A DNA stretch of 64,000 nt from positions 4,154,001-4,218,000 of the forward strand of contig NZ_FNTV01000001.1 of the NCBI RefSeq assembly GCF_900105965.1, in the 5' to 3' direction. Shown here piece after piece: positions 6,306 through 18,874 of the stretch. Every line of letters starts with the position of its first letter. Position 1 is the stretch's first letter. The translations under genes and the position numbers were made by a program. The stretch is from Arthrobacter alpinus (GTDB lineage: Bacteria > Actinomycetota > Actinomycetes > Actinomycetales > Micrococcaceae). The notes beneath the pieces are model-generated. The model was not told where the DNA came from and did not search any database. It saw only the letters and a list, made by a program, of their open reading frames with translations.

Positions 6306-7139
6306 ATGCGCACTGCCGTCTCCGCTCTACTTGTCATTCTGGCCCTCGTGGTTGCAGCCGTGGCTGGACCTGCCCTGTGGCTACAGAAGAACGTCATCGA
6401 TCAGGCCGGTTTCGTTCAATTGGCGGGGCCGTTGGGTTCCAACAAGTCGTTCCAGGAGGGGCTCTCAGCCCTGGCTGCCTCACAGGCCACCGCGTCCGTC
6501 GACCTACCTCCGCAGTTGACTGATCTAGCCGCAGCACTCATCCAAAGTGCTGCCCAGAGCATCTACACCGAGCCCGGCTATGACGCCGCCTGGACCGAAA
6601 CTCTCAAGCGCAGTCACGCCCTGACATTTGCCGCGGCCGGCAACAAGGACATCCAAGGGGACTTGCAGCTGGACATAGCCCCGCTCGTGGCTCTGGTTGC
6701 CGCCAAGGTGAGCGACTCCACCAGCGTGCCGTTGGCTACGCCCAAGGACGTAGTCGTTGCCTTGGAACAGCCTGAACTTGCCCGGCTGCTGCCCGCGGCA
6801 ACCACGCTGGGCGGTTGGGCCGGCTGGATGGCGTTCATCGCCGTCGACCTTTTGGTGCTGGCCCTCGTTGCCGCGCGACGCCGGTCGCTGACCCTCATAC
6901 TCGCAGCCGCCGGGCTGGCCACCGTGGCCCTCGTGTGGTTGTTCGCCTCGGGGGTTGTTCAAAGCGTTTTGACCGGCATGGCGACGGGCCCCGCGGCAGC
7001 CCAACAGTTTGGGGTGGAACTGGGAGCCTTGGCGCGGGAGAGCTGGCAGGGCGGAATCAATGCCACGTTCGTGATTGCCGGGGTGCTGGCGTTGGCCGGT
7101 GTCGCAACTCTCATCATCAAGCGTAGACGCACCACGTAG
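6306..7139 (+). CDS. Predicted integral membrane protein of unknown function
   Basis: A 277-residue protein with one N-terminal hydrophobic segment (about 5-25), a soluble Ala/Leu-rich extracytoplasmic section (about 30-175), two close transmembrane segments (about 182-200 and 208-228), a short loop and a last segment (about 250-270) before a basic R-R-R tail. This one-plus-three layout recurs in uncharacterised actinobacterial proteins next to ispH. I do not recognise a named domain. It ends 10 bases before the ispH start, so the two are probably one transcript. Confidence 0.75.
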
Positions 7140-9598: not shown

Positions 9599-10684
9599 GT
9601 GGCTCTTACTATTGGCATCGTCGGACTGCCCAACGTCGGCAAATCAACTCTTTTCAACGCACTGACGCGTAACAACGTGCTCGCAGCGAACTACCCGTTC
9701 GCCACGATCGAGCCCAACGTTGGCATCGTCAGCCTGCCCGATCCCCGTTTGGCAAAGCTGGCTGAGATCTTCGGGTCCGCACGCCTGCTGCCTGCTGTGG
9801 TGTCCTTCGTGGACATTGCCGGCATCGTCAAGGGTGCTTCGGAAGGTGAAGGCCTGGGCAACAAATTCCTCGCCAACATCCGCGAGGCTGAGGCCATTGC
9901 CCAGGTCATCCGCGTCTTTGACGACCCGGACGTTATCCACGTTGACGGCAAGGTTGATCCCCGCTCCGACATGGAGACCATCAACACTGAGCTGATCCTG
10001 GCGGATATGCAGACGGTTGAAAAGGCCATCCCGCGCATTGAAAAGGCAGTCAAGCTCAAGCAGAGGTCCGCGGCCGAGCTCAACGCCATCCTCGCAGCGC
10101 AGAAAGTCCTGGAACGCGGCGACACCATTTTCTCCTCCGTCAAGAGCGACAAGCTGGAGATGGAACACCTGAAGGAATTGGCACTGCTCACCGCCAAGCC
10201 GTTCATTTACGTGTTCAACGTTGATGATGCCGTGCTGGGCAACCCGGAACGTCAGGAAGAACTGCGCGCACTCGTGGCTCCGGCCGACGCGATCTTCCTG
10301 GACGCCAAGCTTGAATCAGACCTCGTTGAACTCGACGAGGAAGAGGCCCGCGAAATGCTGGAGATGAGCGGACAGTCAGAGTCCGGCATGGACCAGCTGG
10401 CACGCGTCGGCTTCCACACACTGGGCCTGCAGACCTACCTCACGGCAGGTCCCAAGGAAACCCGTGCCTGGACCATCCACCAGGGCGACACCGCACCCCA
10501 GGCTGCCGGCGTCATCCACACCGACTTCCAGCGTGGCTTCATCAAGGCTGAAGTTGTGCACTTCGATGACCTCATCGAGGCCGGATCCATGCATGAGGCG
10601 AAGGCCAAGGGCAAGGTTCGCATTGAAGGCAAGGAATACGTCATGCACGACGGCGACGTGGTGGAGTTCCGATTTAACGTTTAG
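9599..10684 (+). CDS. ychF: Ribosome-binding ATPase/GTPase YchF
   Basis: A 361-residue Obg-family P-loop protein: G1 loop G-L-P-N-V-G-K-S-T at 8-16, switch region, D-I-A-G-I-V-K-G-A, and a C-terminal TGS domain ending V-V-E-F-R-F-N-V. YchF binds the ribosome and prefers ATP. The GTG start gives the usual V/M-A-L-T-I-G-I N-terminus. The last ten codons of this gene recur as three direct downstream copies, which suggests the 3' end is an integration site. The gene's own stop is followed only by a weak 5-bp hairpin (GCCCG/CGGGC), unlike the displaced tails. Confidence 0.95.
10655..10684 (+). repeat. ychF tail, copy 1 (live gene end)
   Basis: The last ten codons of the functional ychF gene, encoding [13 protein letters not shown]. 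This is the reference for the three downstream copies and the left boundary of the accessory region. Confidence 0.85.
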
Positions 10685-10832
10685 GTCCGCTGCTGCCGTG
10701 CCCGGTTTCGGGCGATTGCAGCTGAAGTCCAGCGTGGTGAAGAAGCTCAGCGGACGGCCTCATGTATTCGCCGGGCCGTGGCTTACCCGCGGCGCAGCCG
10801 TCTCTCGCCACGAGCGTGAAAGCAGCAGTCCA

Positions 10833-11453
10833 ATGAAGACCTCACCGCGGGCCAAGCAGGCCAACGACTTCACTTCTTCGCCGGAGCACCACTGGCCCAG
10901 GATGAAAATGAGCATCCCGTACCTGCTCGCCGGCCTGATCGTGCTGGCATTGGGCGCGCTGATGATCCTCAACGACATCCCCGCGCCTGGCAGCTTCAAC
11001 AATGAGACGAAGAGGATCGGCTTTCAGTGGATGCCCGCCATCTGTGGCGCAGTCACTCTGTGGTTCGGCGGCTTCGGTGTGCTCGCTGCGTGGATGGGCG
11101 CGAGGCGCGAGGGCAGCGATGCCCTCGACCTCGCGTTCGCCCCGGACGGGATCATCGTGCGCAGTGGCCACGAGATCGCCTGGACGTCCATCGCGAGCGT
11201 CACAAACGTCAAGTACCGCTACTCGGCCAAATTCCTGCCCGTGTGGAAGATTGTCGGCCTGAACCGCGCGTTTGATGTCTACCTCAACGAGCCCCTGGAC
11301 ATCCCGCAGCTCAGGACGAAAAAAGGGAGGCCGTACGTGAATGTCACGCTTCTGAGGTATCCGGCCGCCGACTACGAGCTCCTCTTCGAGCGGTTCGTCT
11401 ACCAGTTCAATCGCCGGGGGATCCCGGTAAGCAATGAGCAGAGGCAGAGGTGA
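10833..11453 (+). CDS. Membrane-anchored protein of unknown function, paralogue A (206 aa)
   Basis: This start gives 206 residues, exactly the length of a minus-strand paralogue 0.9 kb downstream, and aligns the N-termini (D-F-x-S-S-P-x-H-x-W-P). It has two transmembrane segments at about 29-48 and 66-90, then a soluble C-terminal domain. Shared motifs are W-x-S-I-x-x-V-T, V-x-L-N-E-P-L-D-I-P-x-L-x-T-K, R-Y-P-A-x-D-Y and R-x-I-P-V. The layout (two helices, then a PH-like beta domain) resembles STM3941-type proteins, but that link is by eye only. The ribosome binding site is weak. It is the only gene between ychF tail copies 1 and 2. Confidence 0.7.
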   Translation: MKTSPRAKQANDFTSSPEHHWPRMKMSIPYLLAGLIVLALGALMILNDIPAPGSFNNETKRIGFQWMPAICGAVTLWFGGFGVLAAWMGARREGSDALDLAFAPDGIIVRSGHEIAWTSIASVTNVKYRYSAKFLPVWKIVGLNRAFDVYLNEPLDIPQLRTKKGRPYVNVTLLRYPAADYELLFERFVYQFNRRGIPVSNEQRQR

Positions 11454-11687
11454 CGTGGTCCGACTCTTGTGCGAGGCATACACAGCAGCCCTGGGTGGTC
11501 GATCGTCAAGGGCGTGACAGAGTCAGGGGAGCGACTACGCAAAACCATTCGTCACGGTGATGCGCAGGTAGGTGGCGCAGGAGCTCATCGGGGCGTTGCT
11601 CGGGGAGGGATTGGTTGTGCACGACTGGTGTTCGGACGTGAGGTGAGGTGTCGATTCGTCGCGCAGCCAGACGTTGGTTTGTGTGGC

Positions 11688-11717
11688 GACGCGGTTGAAT
11701 TTAGGTTCAACGTGTAG
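11688..11717 (+). repeat. ychF tail, copy 2
   Basis: Encodes D-A-V-E-F-R-F-N-V-stop in the same orientation as ychF. It differs from copy 1 at 8 of 30 bases, all but one synonymous. The Gly-Asp before V-E-F is also kept. The frame upstream is not ychF, so this is an isolated gene end. It closes cargo block 1. Confidence 0.8.
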
Positions 11718-11739
11718 TTCCGTGCCGGTTTAGACTGTA

Positions 11740-11777
11740 AGAAATGCCCGGAATGCTTTTGCATCCCGGGCATTTCT
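11740..11777. terminator. Hairpin after ychF tail copy 2
   Basis: A 12-bp stem (AGAAATGCCCGG with its exact complement) starting 22 bases after the displaced tail's stop codon. There is no clear T-run. Its position fits the old terminator of a ychF gene carried along with its tail. Confidence 0.65.
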
Positions 11778-12325
11778 GCGCTCAAAGGTGCGGTGTGTAC
11801 AACCAATGGCCAAGAGAGGCATGGATTTGTGGCGACCCTAGCCCTGGTCGGAATGGCCCACCGATATTTGACTTGGGTAGGCAATTGTTAGCCAAACAGG
11901 AATTAGTCAGTGCAGCGTCGTCCGGGTTGGCGGCAGGTGAGGAACCTGAGTTGGATTCGCACGAGAGCCGGTCGGCATCGATGAGCCGCAGCAGCCGGTG
12001 ACAGCTCGGATCAATCTGGTCTTCAACGCAGGGGCACGGATATACCCGTCTGCGCACTAACCCCTCGCCGCGGGTTCTCAGGGAGTCGCACTCGGGGCAA
12101 CGGAATGGCTAAGGGTCGAGGACCAACGCTGTGAGTGAGGTTGCCCTGAATCGGAAGACCGTCGACTTTGGATTTCGCACCAACCTCTGGCCACGCGAAC
12201 TGGTGGGAGCCGTCCATGTGGTCTGGCGTTTCTACACGAACGCTCCCGCTTGATTCGGCTCCTTCGATGGGCCTGTTGGCACTCACGCGCGGTCACCTCG
12301 AATTCGGCTTGATCGAAGACGTAGG

Positions 12326-12946
12326 CTACGTCTCTTTCGTTTTCATTTTCTTGTCGACCGGAATGCGCCTGCGTTCGAACTCGTCGATGACCCACTCATA
12401 GAGGGGCTTGTAGTCGACGGCGGGATAACGAAAAACGTTGATCTTCAGCTGCGGTACGCCGTCCTTTGTTTTGAGTCTCGGAATGTCCAAGGGCTCGTTG
12501 AGATGGACCACGAAAGCGCAATTCAGATCAGCCCGATCCCACATGGCCTGGATTGAGGCACGGTTGTAATACTGCATGCTGGTGACATGGGAAATGGAAT
12601 CCCAGGGGATCTCGTAACCTCCCCGCACAGTGAGCCCTTTTGCAGAAATCTTCAGGTCAATCGCGTTCTCTCGCTTGCGTACTGTGCCCTTCAATCCAAT
12701 TACAAACCCGATGCAGCCGAAGATGATGCAGATTCCGCCAGTCACCATCGGCAAACCGCTGACCCTGATCTGTGAAAGGTAACTCGGCGTGCCGGGAAGG
12801 TCAATGGTGGCCAGGTACAGGCCGGGCAAGAACATGAGAAGGCCGAAAAGGAGGTTTTTGAAGCTTCTATCTAGCACGGGCCAGTAGTGCGGACTAGAAC
12901 TGATGAAGTCTCTGATGGCGTATTTTCCAGATCTTACGTTCTTCAA
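12326..12946 (-). CDS. Membrane-anchored protein of unknown function, paralogue B (206 aa)
   Basis: A 206-residue full-length paralogue of the plus-strand protein 0.9 kb upstream. Common positions include D-F-I-S-S-S-P-H-Y-W-P, I-P-W-D-S-I-S-H-V-T, H-L-N-E-P-L-D-I-P-R-L-K-T-K, R-Y-P-A-V-D-Y and R-R-I-P-V. Two transmembrane segments lie at about 31-50 and 65-88; the C-terminus is Lys-rich. GC content and codon use look lower than in the flanking core genes, which suggests transfer. The ribosome binding site (AAGGAG-like) is weak to fair. Function is unknown; identical length and a shared insertion site suggest related cargo. Confidence 0.75.
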   Translation of the reverse strand: MKNVRSGKYAIRDFISSSPHYWPVLDRSFKNLLFGLLMFLPGLYLATIDLPGTPSYLSQIRVSGLPMVTGGICIIFGCIGFVIGLKGTVRKRENAIDLKISAKGLTVRGGYEIPWDSISHVTSMQYYNRASIQAMWDRADLNCAFVVHLNEPLDIPRLKTKDGVPQLKINVFRYPAVDYKPLYEWVIDEFERRRIPVDKKMKTKET

Positions 12947-13234
12947 GGAGTAAGGTTCTCGCTTCCTTTAGTGCCGCGCTACCCAGCTCCGCGGCTGCAT
13001 ATTTAGCGGCGGGCTGGCGCACCCGTATCGTCGGCGGCGACACCCCTCCTGCCTATTGTTGCAGGATCCGTCACAGCTGGCCTGATAGGTGCCGGTCACG
13101 AGGTCGTCAGACACCCCACGAACTTGATCGTGCGGTCACTCACGCCTGCGCGCGCTCTGAACCGATCCCGCTGCAGCGTACTTCTCCAGTCCCACTCCGG
13201 GATGCCGCGCAGTTCAGAGGTTGATTTGCACCGG

Positions 13235-13264
13235 AATGTGGTGGAGTTCCGCTTCAACGTCTAG
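13235..13264 (+). repeat. ychF tail, copy 3
   Basis: Encodes [13 protein letters not shown] in the same direction as ychF, with 5 of 30 bases differing from copy 1. The identity continues into GTCC just after the TAG stop, as in copy 1. Upstream sequence is not ychF. Confidence 0.8.
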
Positions 13265-13291
13265 GTCCTGACATTCATGCAACCTTTTGTC

Positions 13292-13333
13292 ATGGCCGCC
13301 AAGAACACGTGTTCTTGGCGGCCATCGCTTTTT
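13292..13333 (+). terminator. Rho-independent terminator after ychF tail copy 3
   Basis: A perfect 34-bp palindrome (ATGGCCGCCAAGAACAC and its complement) followed by CGCTTTTTT. It lies 27 bases after the stop of the displaced ychF tail and reads in the same direction. Confidence 0.85.
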
Positions 13334-13419
13334 TCGAGTGGTTGCCAAGTCGAAACGATGCCGTAGCTAGAGGACGACTCAACGTGACACGGACTGCAAA
13401 GCCAATGGCCGCAATCCCC

Positions 13420-14187
13420 TTAGAACAGCGGCCAGGGGACCGCTGGCATCTCACCGCTTGGAGCAGGGAACTGCCCTGCCGAGCGCAACCGGGCGCAGCG
13501 CGCGGCGAGGGATGCGATTTCTTCGGTGCTGAGCAAGTCCGTTAGGTTTTGGCCTAGTTCACCATGCAGTCCTTCGCTGACACGATCCAGGCCGTCTTCT
13601 TCCTCGGCGGTCAAGGCGTCCCCTAGCCACCCCCACAGCACCGTGCGCAGCTTGTGGTCACGGTGAAAAGTGAGCCCGTGGTCCACTCCGTGCCGGTGTC
13701 CGTCAGCCATGGACAGGATGTGGTCGCCCTTGCGGTCGGCGTTGTTGACGACGACGTCGAACACCGCCATGCGCCTGAGTGCCGGCGAGTCTTCATGGAC
13801 GAGGGCAACCATCCGTCCGTTCTCATCCCGTCCCTCGAGAACGTGTTTCCAGCCAGTTTCCGGCACCTGGTCCGCCGCGATCAGGTCCACGGCGTTTTGG
13901 ACGGGATCCTGCTCTTGCCAGAGCTGCACCATTCCTTCGCCCAGCGGACCATCGCGCAGCCAGGTGTGGGGCACCACGCCCCAGCCGAGGGCCTGCGAGA
14001 CCAGATAGGCGGCCACCTCCCGGTGGGCCAGCGTTCCCTGGGGAAAATCCCACAGCGGACTTTCGCCGGCTATCGGCTTATAGACGACCACCACGTCGCC
14101 GATGTTGCCAAGAAATGTAGCATTTGAAGCCGTCGTGATACGGCCGGTGAGAGTCAGCGCAGCGGCCACTAGGTCCGGCGTTGGCAT
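13420..14187 (-). CDS. SCO1664-family protein (PI3/4-kinase-like fold)
   Basis: A 255-residue protein. The start ATG overlaps the stop of the DUF3090 gene (TGATG), which implies translational coupling. Kinase-like landmarks are V-V-V-Y-K-P near 31 (nucleotide lysine), N-N-A-D-R-K-G-D-H (catalytic loop-like) and G-V-D-H-G-L (metal-binding Asp). This matches the SCO1664 family of actinobacteria, whose function is not established. In Mycobacterium tuberculosis the equivalents of this and the next two genes (Rv2133c-Rv2135c) lie near mshC; here mshC is not adjacent. Confidence 0.8.
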   Translation of the reverse strand: MPTPDLVAAALTLTGRITTASNATFLGNIGDVVVVYKPIAGESPLWDFPQGTLAHREVAAYLVSQALGWGVVPHTWLRDGPLGEGMVQLWQEQDPVQNAVDLIAADQVPETGWKHVLEGRDENGRMVALVHEDSPALRRMAVFDVVVNNADRKGDHILSMADGHRHGVDHGLTFHRDHKLRTVLWGWLGDALTAEEEDGLDRVSEGLHGELGQNLTDLLSTEEIASLAARCARLRSAGQFPAPSGEMPAVPWPLF

Positions 14188-14735
14188 CAGACCTCGGGAA
14201 GGGTGCAGGTGTGTCCGCCAGCGTCCACGGGATAACCGCAGAGCGGGCACATCGGACGCCCGGCACCCACGATCTCACGGGTGCGCTTGGCGAATGCGCG
14301 GGCGGTGCCGACAGGTATTCGCACGCGCAGCATCTCGGGCTCATTAGCCCCGTCCTCATCAAGCGATCCGTCGTTGTCATCATCATCTGTGATGGGGTGG
14401 GCTTCAATGACGATCTGGGCCGTGGTTGGGTCCCACCCCAAGCTCATGATCCCAGTGCGAAACTGCTCCTGGACGGCCTCGAGCGGGTCATTGTCGACAA
14501 GTTCAATGGGAGTGCCCGTGGGAATGCTGAAGGGATTGCTCTGGACGGTGATGAGCTCGTCGAGAATTTCGTCGATCTTCTCCGCGAGTAGAGCCGACTG
14601 CTGCTTCTCCAGGGCAATACTCACAACTTGCTTCCCTGCGCGCACCTGCAGGTAGAACGTGCGCGCCCCCGGAAGACCAAGGGTGCCAATGACGACCCGA
14701 TCAGGCCAGGAAAACTCGTGAACACGTGTAGGCAT
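14187..14735 (-). CDS. DUF3090 family protein
   Basis: A 182-residue protein of the conserved actinobacterial DUF3090 family (P-x-R-V-H-x-F-x-x-P-D-R-V-V-I-G-T at the N-terminus). The C-terminus holds a small zinc-knuckle pattern C-P-L-C-G-x-P-V-D-x-x-G-H-x-C at about 164-178. An acidic D-D-D-D-N-D-G-S-L-D-E-D stretch near 140 is a likely loop. It lies between the phosphatase gene (24-base gap) and the coupled SCO1664 gene, the usual order for this trio. Function unknown; the conserved linkage argues for a shared pathway. Confidence 0.85.
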   Translation of the reverse strand: MPTRVHEFSWPDRVVIGTLGLPGARTFYLQVRAGKQVVSIALEKQQSALLAEKIDEILDELITVQSNPFSIPTGTPIELVDNDPLEAVQEQFRTGIMSLGWDPTTAQIVIEAHPITDDDDNDGSLDEDGANEPEMLRVRIPVGTARAFAKRTREIVGAGRPMCPLCGYPVDAGGHTCTLPEV

Positions 14736-14759
14736 GTCAATATTCTAGGCCCAGGAGGT

Positions 14760-15452
14760 TCATGGCGCCTTTTGACCTGCGCCGCCACCCACCGGCGCAT
14801 CGTCGGAGTGGATGCCGTTAGACAGCCACGACAGATCACCCCCGTCCGTGTTGCTCGCGTAGACGCTCGGCCGACTGGGGCCGTAGCGCACGATCGATAT
14901 GGAGGCGGGGCCCACGTTGATCCGCTGGAACAGGTCAAGGTGCATGCCGAGGGCGTCAGCGAGGATTGACTTGATGATGTCACCGTGACTCACTGCCGCC
15001 CACACGGCCCCTGGCCCGTGCTCGGATTCGAATGCTGCATCGTGGCGTCGAATCGCTGCCACTGACCGGGCCTGCATCGCGGCCATGGATTCGCCGCCCG
15101 GAAAGACGACGGAGGACGGTTGCGACTGGACAACGGGCCACAAATCCTCGGTCGTGAGGTCACTGAGCATGCGGCCCTGCCACTGGCCGTAATCGCACTC
15201 GGTGAGGTCGGGATCAATGGGCGCGTACGGCGCGCCAGTCTGGCGATCGAGGATGAGCTGGGCGGTCTGCAGACAACGCTCAAGGGGGCTCGAGACAACC
15301 CCGACTAAGGGCACGGGCGCGAGCCGTTCTCCGGCAAGGGCTGCCTGGTCCCGCCCAATCTGGTCCAAGCTGACTCCGACAGCCCGACCCGCCAGCAGTC
15401 CAGTGGCATTGGCTGTGGAGCGGCCGTGCCGCACGAGAATAACTGTCGCCAT
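14760..15452 (-). CDS. Histidine phosphatase (MSMEG_4193-type putative phosphomutase)
   Basis: A 230-residue branch-1 histidine phosphatase. The catalytic R-H-G is at residues 8-10 (L-V-R-H-G-R-S), followed by S-S-P-L-E-R-C and the second catalytic histidine in A-V-S-H-G-D-I. It matches the group usually annotated as a putative phosphomutase beside DUF3090 in actinobacteria. The extra Gly/Ala-rich C-terminal tail is probably disordered. It is the first gene of a three-gene minus-strand run. The substrate is unknown. Confidence 0.85.
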   Translation of the reverse strand: MATVILVRHGRSTANATGLLAGRAVGVSLDQIGRDQAALAGERLAPVPLVGVVSSPLERCLQTAQLILDRQTGAPYAPIDPDLTECDYGQWQGRMLSDLTTEDLWPVVQSQPSSVVFPGGESMAAMQARSVAAIRRHDAAFESEHGPGAVWAAVSHGDIIKSILADALGMHLDLFQRINVGPASISIVRYGPSRPSVYASNTDGGDLSWLSNGIHSDDAPVGGGAGQKAP

Positions 15453-15618
15453 GCACCCAGCCTAACCACCCGCCGTCGACGAACCCAGCCCAGAAGCCGA
15501 GTGTCACCAACCTTATGGCGAATTAGAGCTAACCAGTTCAGATGGACCCCCTTGATCTGCCATCCATCAGATCATGGGCACATTGACCGGGCAGGGTCGT
15601 GGGACGGATGCTTTAGAC

Positions 15619-16500
15619 ATGAAACTCCTCGAGTTCGATAGCGTCTCCTTGGCGGTCGACGAGTTCGGCGACAAGGGTTCCCCGCCGGTCTTGCTCATCG
15701 CCGGAGCCACCCAATCCATGGACTGGTGGACCCCGGACTTCTGTCAGCTCCTCGCTGCGGAAGGACTGTACGTTATTCGGTACGACCAGCGGGATACCGG
15801 GGCGTCGACAATAAGCCCGCCGGGCAGACCGGACTACGTGGGCAGTGACCTGGCAAACGATCCTCTACGGATCCTTGATGCGCTCGGCATCGACGCGGCA
15901 CATCTCGTTGGTCTGTCGATGGGTGGCGGTATAGCGCAGTACCTCGGTGCCACCGAGCCGCTACGTGTTCGAACGCTCACGCTCATCGAGTCGTCACCGA
16001 TCGGAGGTGACTCGGGCGAGCTGCCGCTCCCAGACTTGAGCCTGGGAGCGGCGGAGAGCGAGCTCCCTGTGGTGAGCAACTGGAACGACGCCTCGACTGT
16101 CATTGATTACCGGGTCGAAGCCGAGCGCCCATATAGGGGGTCGTTCGGCTTTGATGAAGACCGTATCCGTGCAATCGCCACTATTGAGTTTGGCCGCACG
16201 AAGAACATTGAATCCTCGATGATCAATCACTTCCTCGTTGCAGGCGACACCGAGGTGGACCCGTCGACGATCACGATGCCGACTCTTGTCATCCACAGTG
16301 ACTCGGACCCGTTATTTGCGCTGCCCCACGGCGAGGCACTCGCCCACATGATTCCCCACGCCGCTTTGCTGCGTATTCATGGCATGGGGCACGAGGCACC
16401 GCCGCCGAAGGTGTGGGATGTCGTCGTACCTGCGCTTGTCGACCACATGCGGGGATATCGCGAGACGGCCACATCCGGAGCCGCAGGCTCCGATGAGTGA
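15619..16500 (+). CDS. Alpha/beta hydrolase
   Basis: A 293-residue alpha/beta-fold hydrolase with nucleophile elbow V-G-L-S-M-G-G-G near 98-105, G-A-T-Q-S-M-D-W-W and Y-D-Q-R-D-T-G-A-S early motifs typical of aclacinomycin-methylesterase/haloperoxidase-like enzymes, and a late G-H-E-A-P histidine region. The chosen ATG removes 15 weak residues of an upstream alternative start. Its stop overlaps the start of the methyltransferase gene by 8 bases, so the two are co-translated. The substrate cannot be inferred. Confidence 0.75.
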   Translation: MKLLEFDSVSLAVDEFGDKGSPPVLLIAGATQSMDWWTPDFCQLLAAEGLYVIRYDQRDTGASTISPPGRPDYVGSDLANDPLRILDALGIDAAHLVGLSMGGGIAQYLGATEPLRVRTLTLIESSPIGGDSGELPLPDLSLGAAESELPVVSNWNDASTVIDYRVEAERPYRGSFGFDEDRIRAIATIEFGRTKNIESSMINHFLVAGDTEVDPSTITMPTLVIHSDSDPLFALPHGEALAHMIPHAALLRIHGMGHEAPPPKVWDVVVPALVDHMRGYRETATSGAAGSDE

Positions 16501-17158
16501 GAATAACGCGGCACCTGACGTGCCCGCCTGGCTGACGGATACCCGGACTTCGTACGACGTCGATGCCTCCGGTTACGCAGAAAAGGTCCAAGGGCTGCTC
16601 GAAGCTCATCCGCACCTGCGGGCACACTTGGACGTGTTCGTGGAACTCGTCCAGCGCGACGGAGGCGGGCGGGTGGCCGACGTAGGTTGCGGCCCCGGAT
16701 ATGTCACGCGATACCTTCAGGATTCAGGTACCGAAGCGTTCGGGATCGACCTCTCACCCGCGATGGTCGCTATCGCCCAGCGTACCTACCCAGATCTGCA
16801 CTTTGAGGTGGGGACGATGACGAACCTCGATCTGGCCGCTCACTCCGTCGCCGGCATCGTCGCCTTCTGGTCCACGATCCACATTCCTGACCACGCCATG
16901 GCCGGTGTGATCGAAGAGGTTCATCGTGTCCTGCGGCCCGGCGGTCACGTCCTCGTCGGTTTCCACGTCGGGGACAGTACTGAGCACGCCTCCAGTGGAT
17001 ACACGGGCCAACCGATCAGCGTCGATACACACCGTCGACAGGCCAGCAAGATCTCTGACTGGTTGCGAGAAGCCAACTTCCAGATCGAGTCCGAGTCCGT
17101 CTTCCGGCCAGACGACATTGTTCCGGGTGGGATAGTTCTCGCCCGGAGACGTAGGTGA
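16493..17158 (+). CDS. SAM-dependent methyltransferase
   Basis: A 221-residue class I methyltransferase. Motif I is V-A-D-V-G-C-G-P-G near 61-69, motif II is G-I-D-L-S-P-A-M near 83-90, and R-P-G-G-H-V-L near 150 is motif III-like. The start ATG overlaps the hydrolase stop; the frame extends further upstream but would overlap the hydrolase by over 100 bases. The substrate is unknown. The hydrolase-methyltransferase pair is probably cargo of the third block at ychF. Confidence 0.8.
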   Translation: MSENNAAPDVPAWLTDTRTSYDVDASGYAEKVQGLLEAHPHLRAHLDVFVELVQRDGGGRVADVGCGPGYVTRYLQDSGTEAFGIDLSPAMVAIAQRTYPDLHFEVGTMTNLDLAAHSVAGIVAFWSTIHIPDHAMAGVIEEVHRVLRPGGHVLVGFHVGDSTEHASSGYTGQPISVDTHRRQASKISDWLREANFQIESESVFRPDDIVPGGIVLARRRR

Positions 17159-17438
17159 GCATTTTTCTGCCCACCCGTCGTGCATCCCTCGGGTGATGGC
17201 AAGCGTGTCGACGCAACAGAACAAATTCGAAACCGACGGACCTGGGCGGTCCACAAATACACCGCGAAAGTGACCGAACTGCAGTGCCCAGAACGTCCCG
17301 CCTTCGTCCAGTCGGTTGATGCCGGCACGGAGTCTGAACTCACTGAATCTCGGCATGATGCATGCGGGATTCGGAGCGTTCATCTTGCCTGGTTGCTCAC
17401 CATCCTCACACACGATGAGCGACCACGATTCCGACGAG

Positions 17439-17873
17439 TTAGCTTGCAGCTTTGCGGATGTGCTCCGCGATCTTCTTTTCAGTCTCGGGCGTCAACGCCA
17501 GCACGGCGAACGAGGTTACCCACAGGTCGCCGTCATCGAGCTTTGCGGACTCCTCGAATCCCAGGGTGGCGTAACGAGAGGTGAACTTCGAGGCGGCCTT
17601 GAAGAACACGACCACTTTCCCGTCCTCGTCGGCATACGAAGGGAACCCGTACCAGGTCTTGGGAACAAGATGCGGAGCGACTTCGGAAACGATCCTGTCG
17701 ATACCTTCGGCGAGAACCCGGTCCTCATCCGGTAACGCGGCGATCGCTTCACGAACTGCCTGCTCACCTGCGGCGCGGTTTTTCCCGGCTTTTTCCTGTG
17801 CACGCAGCTCCGAAGCGCGCTGTTTGACAGCATCGCGTTCTTCCTTGGACAGCCCGGCGTTCTTCTCAGCCAT
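17439..17873 (-). CDS. DUF1801-like (YdhG/iron-chaperone fold) protein
   Basis: A 144-residue protein. A charged helical N-terminus (about 1-40) is followed by a DUF1801-like domain with P-K-T-W-Y-G-F-P-S-Y near 91-100, G-K-V-V-V-F-F-K-A-A-S-K-F near 105-117 and L-G-F. Family members are small cytosolic proteins of poorly defined role. It is the last gene before ychF tail copy 4. The 280 bases between it and the methyltransferase hold no convincing gene. Confidence 0.65.
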   Translation of the reverse strand: MAEKNAGLSKEERDAVKQRASELRAQEKAGKNRAAGEQAVREAIAALPDEDRVLAEGIDRIVSEVAPHLVPKTWYGFPSYADEDGKVVVFFKAASKFTSRYATLGFEESAKLDDGDLWVTSFAVLALTPETEKKIAEHIRKAAS

Positions 17874-18029
17874 GTGATTCTCCTAAGTTCCAGTGCGGCA
17901 ACCATTGCCGCTTGGGAATCACACTACGGCCACCCATCGCGGCCCGCTTCTTGAATCCTGCTCGAATACTTTCTGCGCCTGGCCTGCTTGATCCTGCTGG
18001 CTAGACGGTAAGGCGTTAGTTGGCTAAGA

Positions 18030-18059
18030 AACGCGGTGGAGTTCCGGGTTAACGTCTAA
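18030..18059 (+). repeat. ychF tail, copy 4 (outermost)
   Basis: Encodes N-A-V-E-F-R-V-N-V-stop (TAA) in the same orientation as ychF, with 6 of 30 bases differing from copy 1. Phe has become Val in R-F-N-V. A drifting residue fits a copy no longer under selection. It marks the right edge of the accessory region. Confidence 0.75.
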
Positions 18060-18106: not shown

Positions 18107-18229
18107 TGTATCCCGGCAATGAGGGCGGAGTCTAATGCCAGCCGGCTGTCGTCCAAAACCATTGCAGTTGGAAATCACTCTGGGCTAGGGTTCAAGTGAT
18201 TCCAGATGGCAGTCAAACAGGGAGATCTT

Positions 18230-18874
18230 ATGGCTCGGACGCGGGTACACAGCCTGTTCGTTTCCTCAGATGGATATGCTGCAGGTGACTATGTGACGCT
18301 CGAAAAGCCGATCGGTGAAGCCGGGGCGCTCTTCGGCAAGTTCGACGGACGCGTCATCCACGGCATCCATGGAGTGGACGACCCTGTGACCGTGGATCGG
18401 GCCATGTTCAGCATGTGGGGCCAGGGCATCGGGGCGGAGATTATGGGCCGGCGTAAGTTTGGTCCGCAGTCGGGCGAATGGCCCGACGACGGCTGGGAAG
18501 GATGGTGGGGAGACGCACCGCCCTTCCTTACCCCGGTGTTCATCCTGACTCACTATCCTCGTAAGGCGCTCGAGTTCACCAACGGCACCAGCTTCCACTT
18601 CATAGATGCGTCGCCGGAGAAAGCACTTCGGCTGGCGCAGGAAGCGGCTGGCGGGCTGGACGTTCGGATTGGCGGCGGGCCATCGACAGTGAGCGAATTC
18701 CTGCAGGCTGATCTCGTCGACTTCCTGCATGTGGTGATCGTTCCGATCGTGCTCGGCTCCGGTGTCCGGATCTGGGATCAGTTGGCTGGCTTGGAAGACC
18801 GATTCAGTGTTGAATCCATCAGCACGTCAAGTGGTCTCACGCATCAGCTGTGGAACAGGACCGGCCGCGTGTGA
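18230..18874 (+). CDS. Dihydrofolate reductase-family protein (RibD C-terminal domain)
   Basis: A 214-residue protein of the RibD-C/dihydrofolate-reductase superfamily, with M-G-R-R-K-F-G near 67, F-I-L-T-H-Y near 105, D-V-R-I-G-G-G-P-S-T near 143 and P-I-V-L-G-S-G-V near 169, which form the NADPH-binding fold. The ATG with GGGAG upstream is preferred to one 24 bases earlier. Such stand-alone proteins are NAD(P)H-dependent reductases of unknown substrate and are not the essential DHFR. It is the first gene downstream of the ychF repeat region. Confidence 0.75.
   Translation: MARTRVHSLFVSSDGYAAGDYVTLEKPIGEAGALFGKFDGRVIHGIHGVDDPVTVDRAMFSMWGQGIGAEIMGRRKFGPQSGEWPDDGWEGWWGDAPPFLTPVFILTHYPRKALEFTNGTSFHFIDASPEKALRLAQEAAGGLDVRIGGGPSTVSEFLQADLVDFLHVVIVPIVLGSGVRIWDQLAGLEDRFSVESISTSSGLTHQLWNRTGRV

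Follow-up and report, generated by a model that had tools for sequence, protein, structure and literature searches.

Tandem cassettes at the 3' end of ychF in Arthrobacter alpinus and other Actinobacteria, probably moved by large serine recombinases

The ychF locus of Arthrobacter alpinus

We analyzed a 64,000-nucleotide (nt) stretch of Arthrobacter alpinus contig NZ_FNTV01000001.1, here called the window, in which the 3' end of ychF is followed by displaced copies of itself that bound small blocks of genes. Coordinates are positions in the window unless stated otherwise, and L-, G-, and g-numbers denote loci, genomes, and genus labels throughout. The target gene, the live copy of ychF (9599..10684, +), is an open reading frame (ORF) of 361 amino acids (aa) with full-length matches in relatives. 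Its end forms the live site (10636..10684, +), which is of attB type (B|B') and consists of the left side of ychF and the tail GTGGAGTTCCGATTTAACGTTTAG. The crossover dinucleotide is predicted to be the GT at 10661-10662 (+), a position derived from the dyad of the site.

Three displaced sites follow on the same strand, at 11669..11717 (site 2, +), 13216..13264 (site 3, +), and 18011..18059 (site 4, +), and the spacings between the four tails are 1033, 1547, and 4795 bp. The displaced sites are of the type P|B', as expected of an attR, with left-arm scores of 19.69, 25.07, and 14.81, respectively; a score equal to or better than that of site 2 is reached by a fraction of 3e-5 of the 24-mers in the window. 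A preliminary description of this DNA had placed the four tails where we find them, all on one strand, and had counted 8, 5, and 6 differences from copy 1 among 30 bases in copies 2, 3, and 4; both observations were reproduced.

Cassette 1 (about 1033 bp, 10663..11695, +, as delimited by the tail spacing) ends at sites 1 and 2 and carries a gene for 203 aa (10842..11453, +) whose frame is open further upstream. Cassette 2 (about 1547 bp, 11696..13242, +) has a terminator-like hairpin with 17-bp arms directly after site 2 (11740..11777, +) and a gene for 206 aa (12326..12946, -). The two proteins are related to each other (37-39% identity), their genes lie on opposite strands, and a Pfam and NCBIfam scan gave no match for either. 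Cassette 2 is 84.5% identical to segment L140_5 of the same genus in an alignment that covers 90% of L140_5 and 61% of cassette 2.

We propose that the 3' end of ychF serves as attB for a group of actinobacterial large serine recombinases (LSRs) and that arrays such as this one consist of passive cassettes moved by these enzymes, a reading to which we assign a probability of roughly 80%. Sequence comparison shows the exact site, the direction, and the order of insertion, LSR elements at the same site, and a half-site type common to both. The cassettes themselves would be passive, moved by LSRs in trans or in cis.

Tail copies in the genome, the genus, and the phylum

With a 23-base tail pattern and 1 mismatch allowed, we found 5 matches in the whole genome and 0 in a backwards control; these are the four window copies and one on a second contig. 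The same-genus scan of 23 genomes gave 62 tail matches against 1 control match, and 15 of the 23 genomes had at least two tails, always on one strand within each genome. Among 80 named actinobacterial ychF loci, 45 tail matches with up to 2 mismatches lay downstream of ychF, in 22 of the loci, while 721 kb of upstream sequence and the reverse strand gave none. Loci with displaced tails include Demequina, Kocuria, Nesterenkonia, Janibacter, Microbacterium, Brevibacterium, and Arthrobacter castelli. Overall, 383 tails, live ends included, were in forward orientation and 3 in reverse. A composite site of 45 bases, with up to 3 mismatches, was found in 86 of 245 family genomes and in none of the control rows shown; prevalence figures for sites vary with the search patterns used. 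The preliminary description had allowed for tails being parts of unrelated genes with chance similarity. Given controls at or near zero in the genome itself, the genus, the family, and the upstream and reverse sequences, we consider the probability of this practically negligible.

The tail on the second contig lies within a 3' fragment of ychF (residues 268-361; 94 aa, 86% identical; L090:11696-11978, corresponding to G000:C2:218693-218974) and is followed by the apparent C-terminal part of a HigB-type gene. Two similar sequences resembling Tn3-family ends flank the fragment, and the region is a possible plasmid vehicle for cassettes. Tail sites distant from ychF were also seen in L266 (G157) and, on another contig, in L264 (G044); one of them has a cassette related to L124_1.

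Native neighbors and the order of insertion

The preliminary description had asked whether strains with an empty site exist. Two same-genus genomes (L129 and L132) have a gene of the SCO1664 family directly behind the ychF tail. In the window this gene (13420-14250, -) opens a native downstream block (13420..15452, -), together with genes for a DUF3090 protein (14187-14735, -) and a histidine phosphatase (14760-15452, -). In front of the block is the native ychF terminator, a 17-bp perfect inverted repeat (13292..13325, +) with a similar hairpin at both empty sites. Because this terminator and SCO1664 follow it, the right half of site 3 is read as the probable original chromosomal tail of ychF. 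When the window ychF end is joined to position 13241 onward, the sequence agrees with the empty sites through the tail and the terminator; the joined sequence is identical at 244 of 320 positions with L129, at 252 of 320 with L132, and at 212 of 320 with the array locus L131.

A position for SCO1664 was obtained in 20 of the 23 same-genus loci; in 12 of these 20, the gene follows the start of the last close tail at a distance of 117-183 bp. The 12 loci comprise the two empty sites, nine array loci (window included), and L139 of G019, in which the tail next to SCO1664 is the end of a 19.5-kb element. The native terminator hairpin follows 11 of the 12 tails adjacent to SCO1664, compared with 1 of the 55 other tails in the genus. 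As the comparison indicates, insertions enter at the tail between ychF and its native neighbor, and the original tail and terminator appear to be pushed outward. Since the tail beside the native neighbor keeps the native terminator, the newer insertions are those nearer to ychF.

The stepwise, site-specific accretion at the ychF 3' end that the preliminary description had postulated is thus supported by the empty sites and by the position of the native terminator. Its three cargo blocks have to be reduced: two appear to be cassettes (1.03 and 1.55 kb), inserted at 10.66-13.24 kb between ychF and SCO1664, and the third (13.26-18.03 kb) begins with the native neighbors of ychF. Likewise, its idea of an old tail pushed outward holds for the original tail at 13.24 kb and falls short in that the displaced sites also carry a P-type left arm.

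Architecture of the sites

The comparison covered 196 distinct displaced sites and 96 distinct live ends. Tails closer together than 70 bp entered the count a single time, and L022 (the same record as L261) and L143 were excluded from the segment and matrix counts. The displaced sites share a left arm of 25 bp, with the consensus AGAGGTT at -25 to -19, T at -16, and CCGGAACGTG up to -1, which the live ychF does not have. The site is about 49 bp long, with conservation that fades to the left of -25 and stops at the stop codon on the right. Because of this common left arm absent from ychF, the displaced tails are better understood as recombination sites than as gene-end debris.

The right half of the displaced sites varies like coding sequence. 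Of the displaced tails, 65 of 183 use AGA or AGG for arginine, as do 6 of 21 live tails, compared with 8 of the 345 arginine codons in the body of ychF across the genus. At third codon positions, divergence rises from a low level immediately ahead of the core to a higher one inside it, and the value for the tail is inside the range of the gene body, so it is the codon choice, not the divergence, that signals foreign origin. On this basis, the suggestion of the preliminary description that the tails come from other lineages is supported. The coding-like variation of the right halves would also be compatible with tails that spread among ychF genes by homologous recombination or template switching, with no site-specific enzyme involved. 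We regard such a spread as very improbable, as the displaced copies carry a 25-bp arm that ychF lacks, the breaks fall at one position, the shared homology is about 24 bp, and LSRs are found at the same site.

A matrix was trained solely on the left arms of the arrays and applied to the independent sites of LSR elements. Of the P' arms at attL, reverse-complemented, 12 of 13 had a background fraction under 4e-4 and scored higher than the best of the 96 live right arms (3.5). The P left arms at attR were below a background fraction of 5e-4 in 10 of 12 cases, the misses being L227 and the second tail of L233. In P', the triplet at +16 to +18, numbered from GTTCCG, is AAC in 8, TAC in 4, and TGC in 1 of 13 sites; in the ychF tail, AAC or AAT stands at +11 to +13, which amounts to an outward shift of 5 bp in P'. 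As far as is known, a 5-bp outward shift is a rule for the attP of LSRs relative to attB. The attP thus has the form of a dyad centered on GT, and the left arm of the arrays belongs to the P type of LSRs.

In this notation, LSR elements are B|P' ... P|B' and array segments B|B' ... P|B'. P-type half-sites are present at array junctions, with weaker arms at L227 and L237, and the live end in the window is B|B' and not a B|P' attL as seen in the LSR loci. The array sites look like double-stranded LSR half-sites, not like folded attC sites. Many cassettes also begin with a second, degenerate core exactly 23 bp past the tail; this was noted in L123, L130, L140, L142, L242, L245, L246, L247, L252, L253, L255, L257, L261, and L278.

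Large serine recombinases at ychF

When viral contigs were scanned for the tail, there were three matches; an LSR gene accompanies two of them, starting 34 and 43 bp from the tail and pointing away from it. When 245 family genomes were searched with one of these LSRs, 56 had a match. Fifteen of the better-matching genomes were checked for linkage to ychF, and in 12 of them the LSR lay within 12 kb of the gene, in 11 cases with an element-type ychF tail and in one (G062) as a broken gene in an array. In G188, the LSR and ychF are on split contigs and ychF has an element-type tail; in G154 and G022, the LSR (38-41% identity) is not linked to ychF. Two further linked LSRs were found in G166 and G214. 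The LSR of L176 carries the domains PF00239 and PF07508 (resolvase and recombinase).

In the LSR elements at ychF, the predicted crossover GT lies in ...GACGTGGTGGAGTTCCG..., and the P' arm of the element takes the place of the last ychF codons in frame, which gives ends such as FRSGLTSGGKK, FRHNTTSPQKK, or FRHGITSAAQGKK. The far end, where read, consists of a P arm and the old ychF tail (P|B'). Related elements of about 54 kb (G241) and about 43 kb (G127) occur in two genera. We compared their left and right ends, which are 92% identical over the left 7.0 kb (ychF included) and 90% identical over the right 1.86 kb, where the similarity breaks off precisely where the tail ends. In G127 and G166, LSR elements are located ahead of arrays.

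Further observations concern single loci. In L281 (G166), the LSR element in front of a six-segment array has relaxase-like and small serine recombinase-like genes, which suggests a mobilizable helper. L280 (G019) has the 19.5-kb element at ychF, with an element-type tail and large type I restriction-like genes; despite that tail, no LSR match was obtained in the stretches of the G019 element that were read. In L238 (G062), a broken LSR lies in the array and is directly preceded by a second partial copy of ychF (residues about 213-361; 6652-7098). The array of G001 contains a broken small resolvase gene (G001:C1:2670219-2670569).

A search of the window for LSRs gave no match, and all 13 matches to the resolvase domain in the genome lie outside the window, which agrees with the earlier statement that no recombinase is present in cis. 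The likely enzymes are LSRs rather than the tyrosine recombinases suggested earlier. Among the PF00589 matches listed, which covered 7 of 10 in the genome itself, the nearest is about 39 kb from a tail (G006).

The L176 LSR matched 1071 records of sequenced phages, each at less than 60%, and in phages SuMoo, Percival, LastHope, and Caron (37-44%) no ychF-type attP was found in the 2.5 kb to the left or right of the matching integrase. With a class B LSR, 934 phage and 246 plasmid records matched, again all below 60%. A search of viral contigs with the L176 LSR gave no match beyond its own contig.

Shared cassettes and their cargo

Defining a segment as the stretch between successive tails with up to 3 mismatches, we obtained 205 segments in 75 loci, with a median length of 1.52 kb, a range of 0.3-12.3 kb, and up to ten segments per locus. 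Not all of them are mobile cassettes, since 12 hold SCO1664. The preliminary description had proposed a search for other cargo flanked by the same tail, and these arrays, with segments common to different loci, answer it. Altogether, 70 pairs of segments match over more than 60% of both members, 29 of them with at least 98% mutual coverage, and several pairs occupy different positions in their arrays. Three cases cross genus borders with exact ends: L122_1 (position 1 of 2, g1) and L245_2 (position 2 of 8, g24) share 680 bp at 90%; a block of three cassettes is common to L130_1-3 (g1) and L254_2-4 (g23) at 94-96%; and L255_1 (g15) matches L268_1 (g24) at 93%. Other pairs are L242_1 and L246_2 (97.6%) and L248_1 and L249_2 (95%). 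The cross-genus matches rest on public assemblies, among which G229 is listed at 5% contamination.

The sharing bears on the question of whether the cassettes are merely remnants of LSR elements or prophages that have lost the LSR and the P' end, either through a deletion or because the ychF end was exchanged homologously with that of another strain, so that none now moves on its own. LSR fragments do follow ychF in L035, L071, and L238, with a further, weak fragment in L121; the broken small resolvase inside the G001 array points the same way, and homologous exchange in ychF would likewise bring in foreign tails. Decay would nevertheless hardly leave cassettes that match from core to core at different positions and in different genera, and random loss would not be expected to yield 29 full-length matches at a median segment length of 1.5 kb. 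We consider this explanation unlikely.

For the analysis of cargo, segments longer than 7 kb were excluded from the ORF list, and the 150 longest of 195 selected ORFs were taken. We removed 27 of these by hand (native block and doubtful loci), and the remaining 123 were scanned together with the 2 window genes, 125 segment proteins in all. Among the first 25 families of each scan, the cargo includes hydrolases, transporters, acetyltransferases, and PIN and TIR domains. Among the first 25 of 116 families with matches to known or candidate anti-phage models, there were single matches to AbiD, AbiEi, PifA, TIR-TM, type IV restriction, PDC-S06, PDC-S56, HEC-06, and others. A frame starting with MIRSFG, which is presumably HigB-like, recurs after 16 of 325 sites. 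A perfect stem of at least 8 bp is present within 95 bp after 41 of the 325 sites, compared with 7 of 325 random pieces.

A model for cassette movement

The array sites are P|B' and not P|P', which means that a simple integration of attP into attB does not make them, and this is the first of several points that weigh against the proposed reading. No excision circle was seen. SCO1664 lies 0.7-3.4 kb behind the last close tail in 8 of the 20 same-genus loci in which it was placed, so other changes happened there. Tails also lie past the native block, at 18036 in the window and in L261, L262, and L270, and in G157 (L266) there are tail sites 1.6 Mb from ychF; both kinds need another step. In the half-site test, L237 was the single miss among the P' arms at attL, and just 7 of the 12 P arms at attR exceed the best of the 96 live left arms (7.7), the other five falling within the live range because ychF shares letters next to the core. 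The genome of the window has no LSR match at an E value of 1e-40 or below (6 of 14 candidates scored). Its sole LSR-sized resolvase gene is at C1:228866, 3.9 Mb away, with partial matches that are 25-39% alike, and has neither a ychF-type core nor an attP dyad in the 5.5 kb read. As this LSR is distant and lacks the site type, we infer that mobilization in the genome of the window was due to other or departed elements.

The simplest route that uses canonical LSR reactions alone is a model in which a helper shuttles the cassettes. A helper element would integrate in front of an array and excise through a more distal P|B' site, carrying the cassettes along. Helper and cassettes would then integrate at ychF in a new host, after which the helper would leave alone via the near site, so that the cassette is deposited, the tail of the donor becomes live, and the tail of the host is displaced. 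For the window, the shuttle would have run a minimum of one time, delivering the two cassettes jointly, or else two times, and the helper would have been lost afterwards. Such a shuttle would explain the foreign-looking live tails, the arrays that lack an LSR, the helpers found before arrays, and the shared block of three cassettes.

Alternatively, small P|B' circles could be inserted directly at attB (B|B') by a tolerant LSR, which would make the system an integron with a serine recombinase. Substrates and products would then be of the same type, and insertion and excision would be freely reversible with no need for a directionality factor. The B|B' live ends with P|B' junctions, the single small cassettes, their sharing across genera, and their one orientation would all be explained in this way, and the diverse cargo, with defense-type and toxin-antitoxin-type genes, would fit as well. 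To our knowledge, however, canonical LSRs do not recombine attB with attR; in addition, neither a circle nor an active recombinase was seen, and the sharing of a block of three cassettes (L130_1-3 and L254_2-4) is better accommodated by a helper. We regard direct insertion as a possibility to be taken seriously, though clearly the minority one. The data are compatible with both the helper shuttle and a direct P|B' x B|B' reaction.

Comparison with known systems

Integrons and clusters of attC sites lacking integron-integrases (CALINs) are arrays in one direction with one site per cassette, the newest cassette at the anchor, and a cargo of defense and toxin-antitoxin genes. The ychF arrays are similar in their small cassettes, their one direction, their one site for each cassette, the newest cassette next to ychF, and their defense and toxin-antitoxin cargo. 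They differ in the enzyme class and the site type, in the anchor, which is ychF, and in that some cassettes start with a hairpin.

Among described systems, the ssrA islands of Dehalococcoides come closest; like the ychF arrays, they stand in tandem behind a single-copy gene and are bounded by a repeat of its 3' end. There, the gene for DsiB, a CcrB-like serine integrase, lies at the left edge of the element, 15 islands without an integration module are suspected to have been mobilized in cis by accretion, and the island sizes overlap the range of the staphylococcal cassette chromosome (SCC) (PMC3146451). Compared with these islands, which are in another phylum and at ssrA, the ychF system has a median segment of 1.5 kb, half-site types that can be distinguished, and a protein tail that is replaced in frame.

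SCC, the Enterococcus cassette chromosome (ECC), and the accretion of cis-mobilizable elements (CIMEs) belong to the same kind of system but differ in target or enzyme. SCC, including SCCmec, and ECC at rlmH, with CcrAB, likewise use LSRs, the 3' region of a conserved gene, and att sites of about 50 bp with inverted repeats; multiple attR sites are given for 16 of 32 ECC, with sizes from 21 upward (PMC6222049). The ychF system differs from SCC in its target, ychF instead of rlmH, and the LSRs of the relatives match the NCBIfam Ccr models only far below the cutoffs. CIMEs are passive segments with att sites and no integrase that stand in tandem with helpers at the 3' ends of genes; the classical ones of Streptococcus are described as 1.2-13 kb long, with composites of two or three elements, compared with up to ten segments and LSRs as the likely enzymes in the ychF arrays (PMC7563491). 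The window cassettes resemble CIMEs in that they appear to retain att sites, that there is no LSR match in the window, and that their main genes have no match in Pfam or NCBIfam. A prophage of pneumococci has only the name of the gene in common with our arrays: its site lies between dnaN and ychF, on the upstream side of the latter, and its 14-bp repeat is unrelated in sequence (PMC6375853). No actinobacterial ychF system was among the literature matches listed in a search in which supplements, preprints, and most subscription papers were outside the scope.

As far as is known, integrons are rare in Actinobacteria. Tentatively, and at somewhat less than even odds, the arrays may represent a phylum-wide, integron-like cassette platform, built on LSRs and a hybrid P|B' site at ychF, that captures cassettes of many kinds, including some that carry anti-phage or toxin-antitoxin genes, stacks them with the newest first, and exchanges them across genera. 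On such a platform, an array could keep growing with no resident recombinase, because each insertion would regenerate a usable attB. If so, Actinobacteria would have gained a site-defined route for the exchange of accessory genes that is comparable to integrons. The recognizable 49-bp signature allows the mining of cassettes, ychF arrays may be worth searching for new defense genes, and the LSR elements bring natural attP/attB pairs that are candidate genetic tools. The system also raises the mechanistic question of whether an LSR can use a P|B' x B|B' pair or a helper shuttle is obligatory.

Other features of the window

Between the native block and site 4 (15574..17873), the window encodes an alpha/beta hydrolase (+), a methyltransferase (+), and a 144-aa protein (-) with no Pfam match. 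Nine window proteins scanned for families included no phage structural family; the window was not systematically searched for phage. Past site 4 there is a RibD_C (reductase-like) gene (18206..18874, +). A tail follows the RibD_C gene in the relatives L133, L270, and L265, and also in L132 at 3 mismatches, where the gene is probably a cassette gene.

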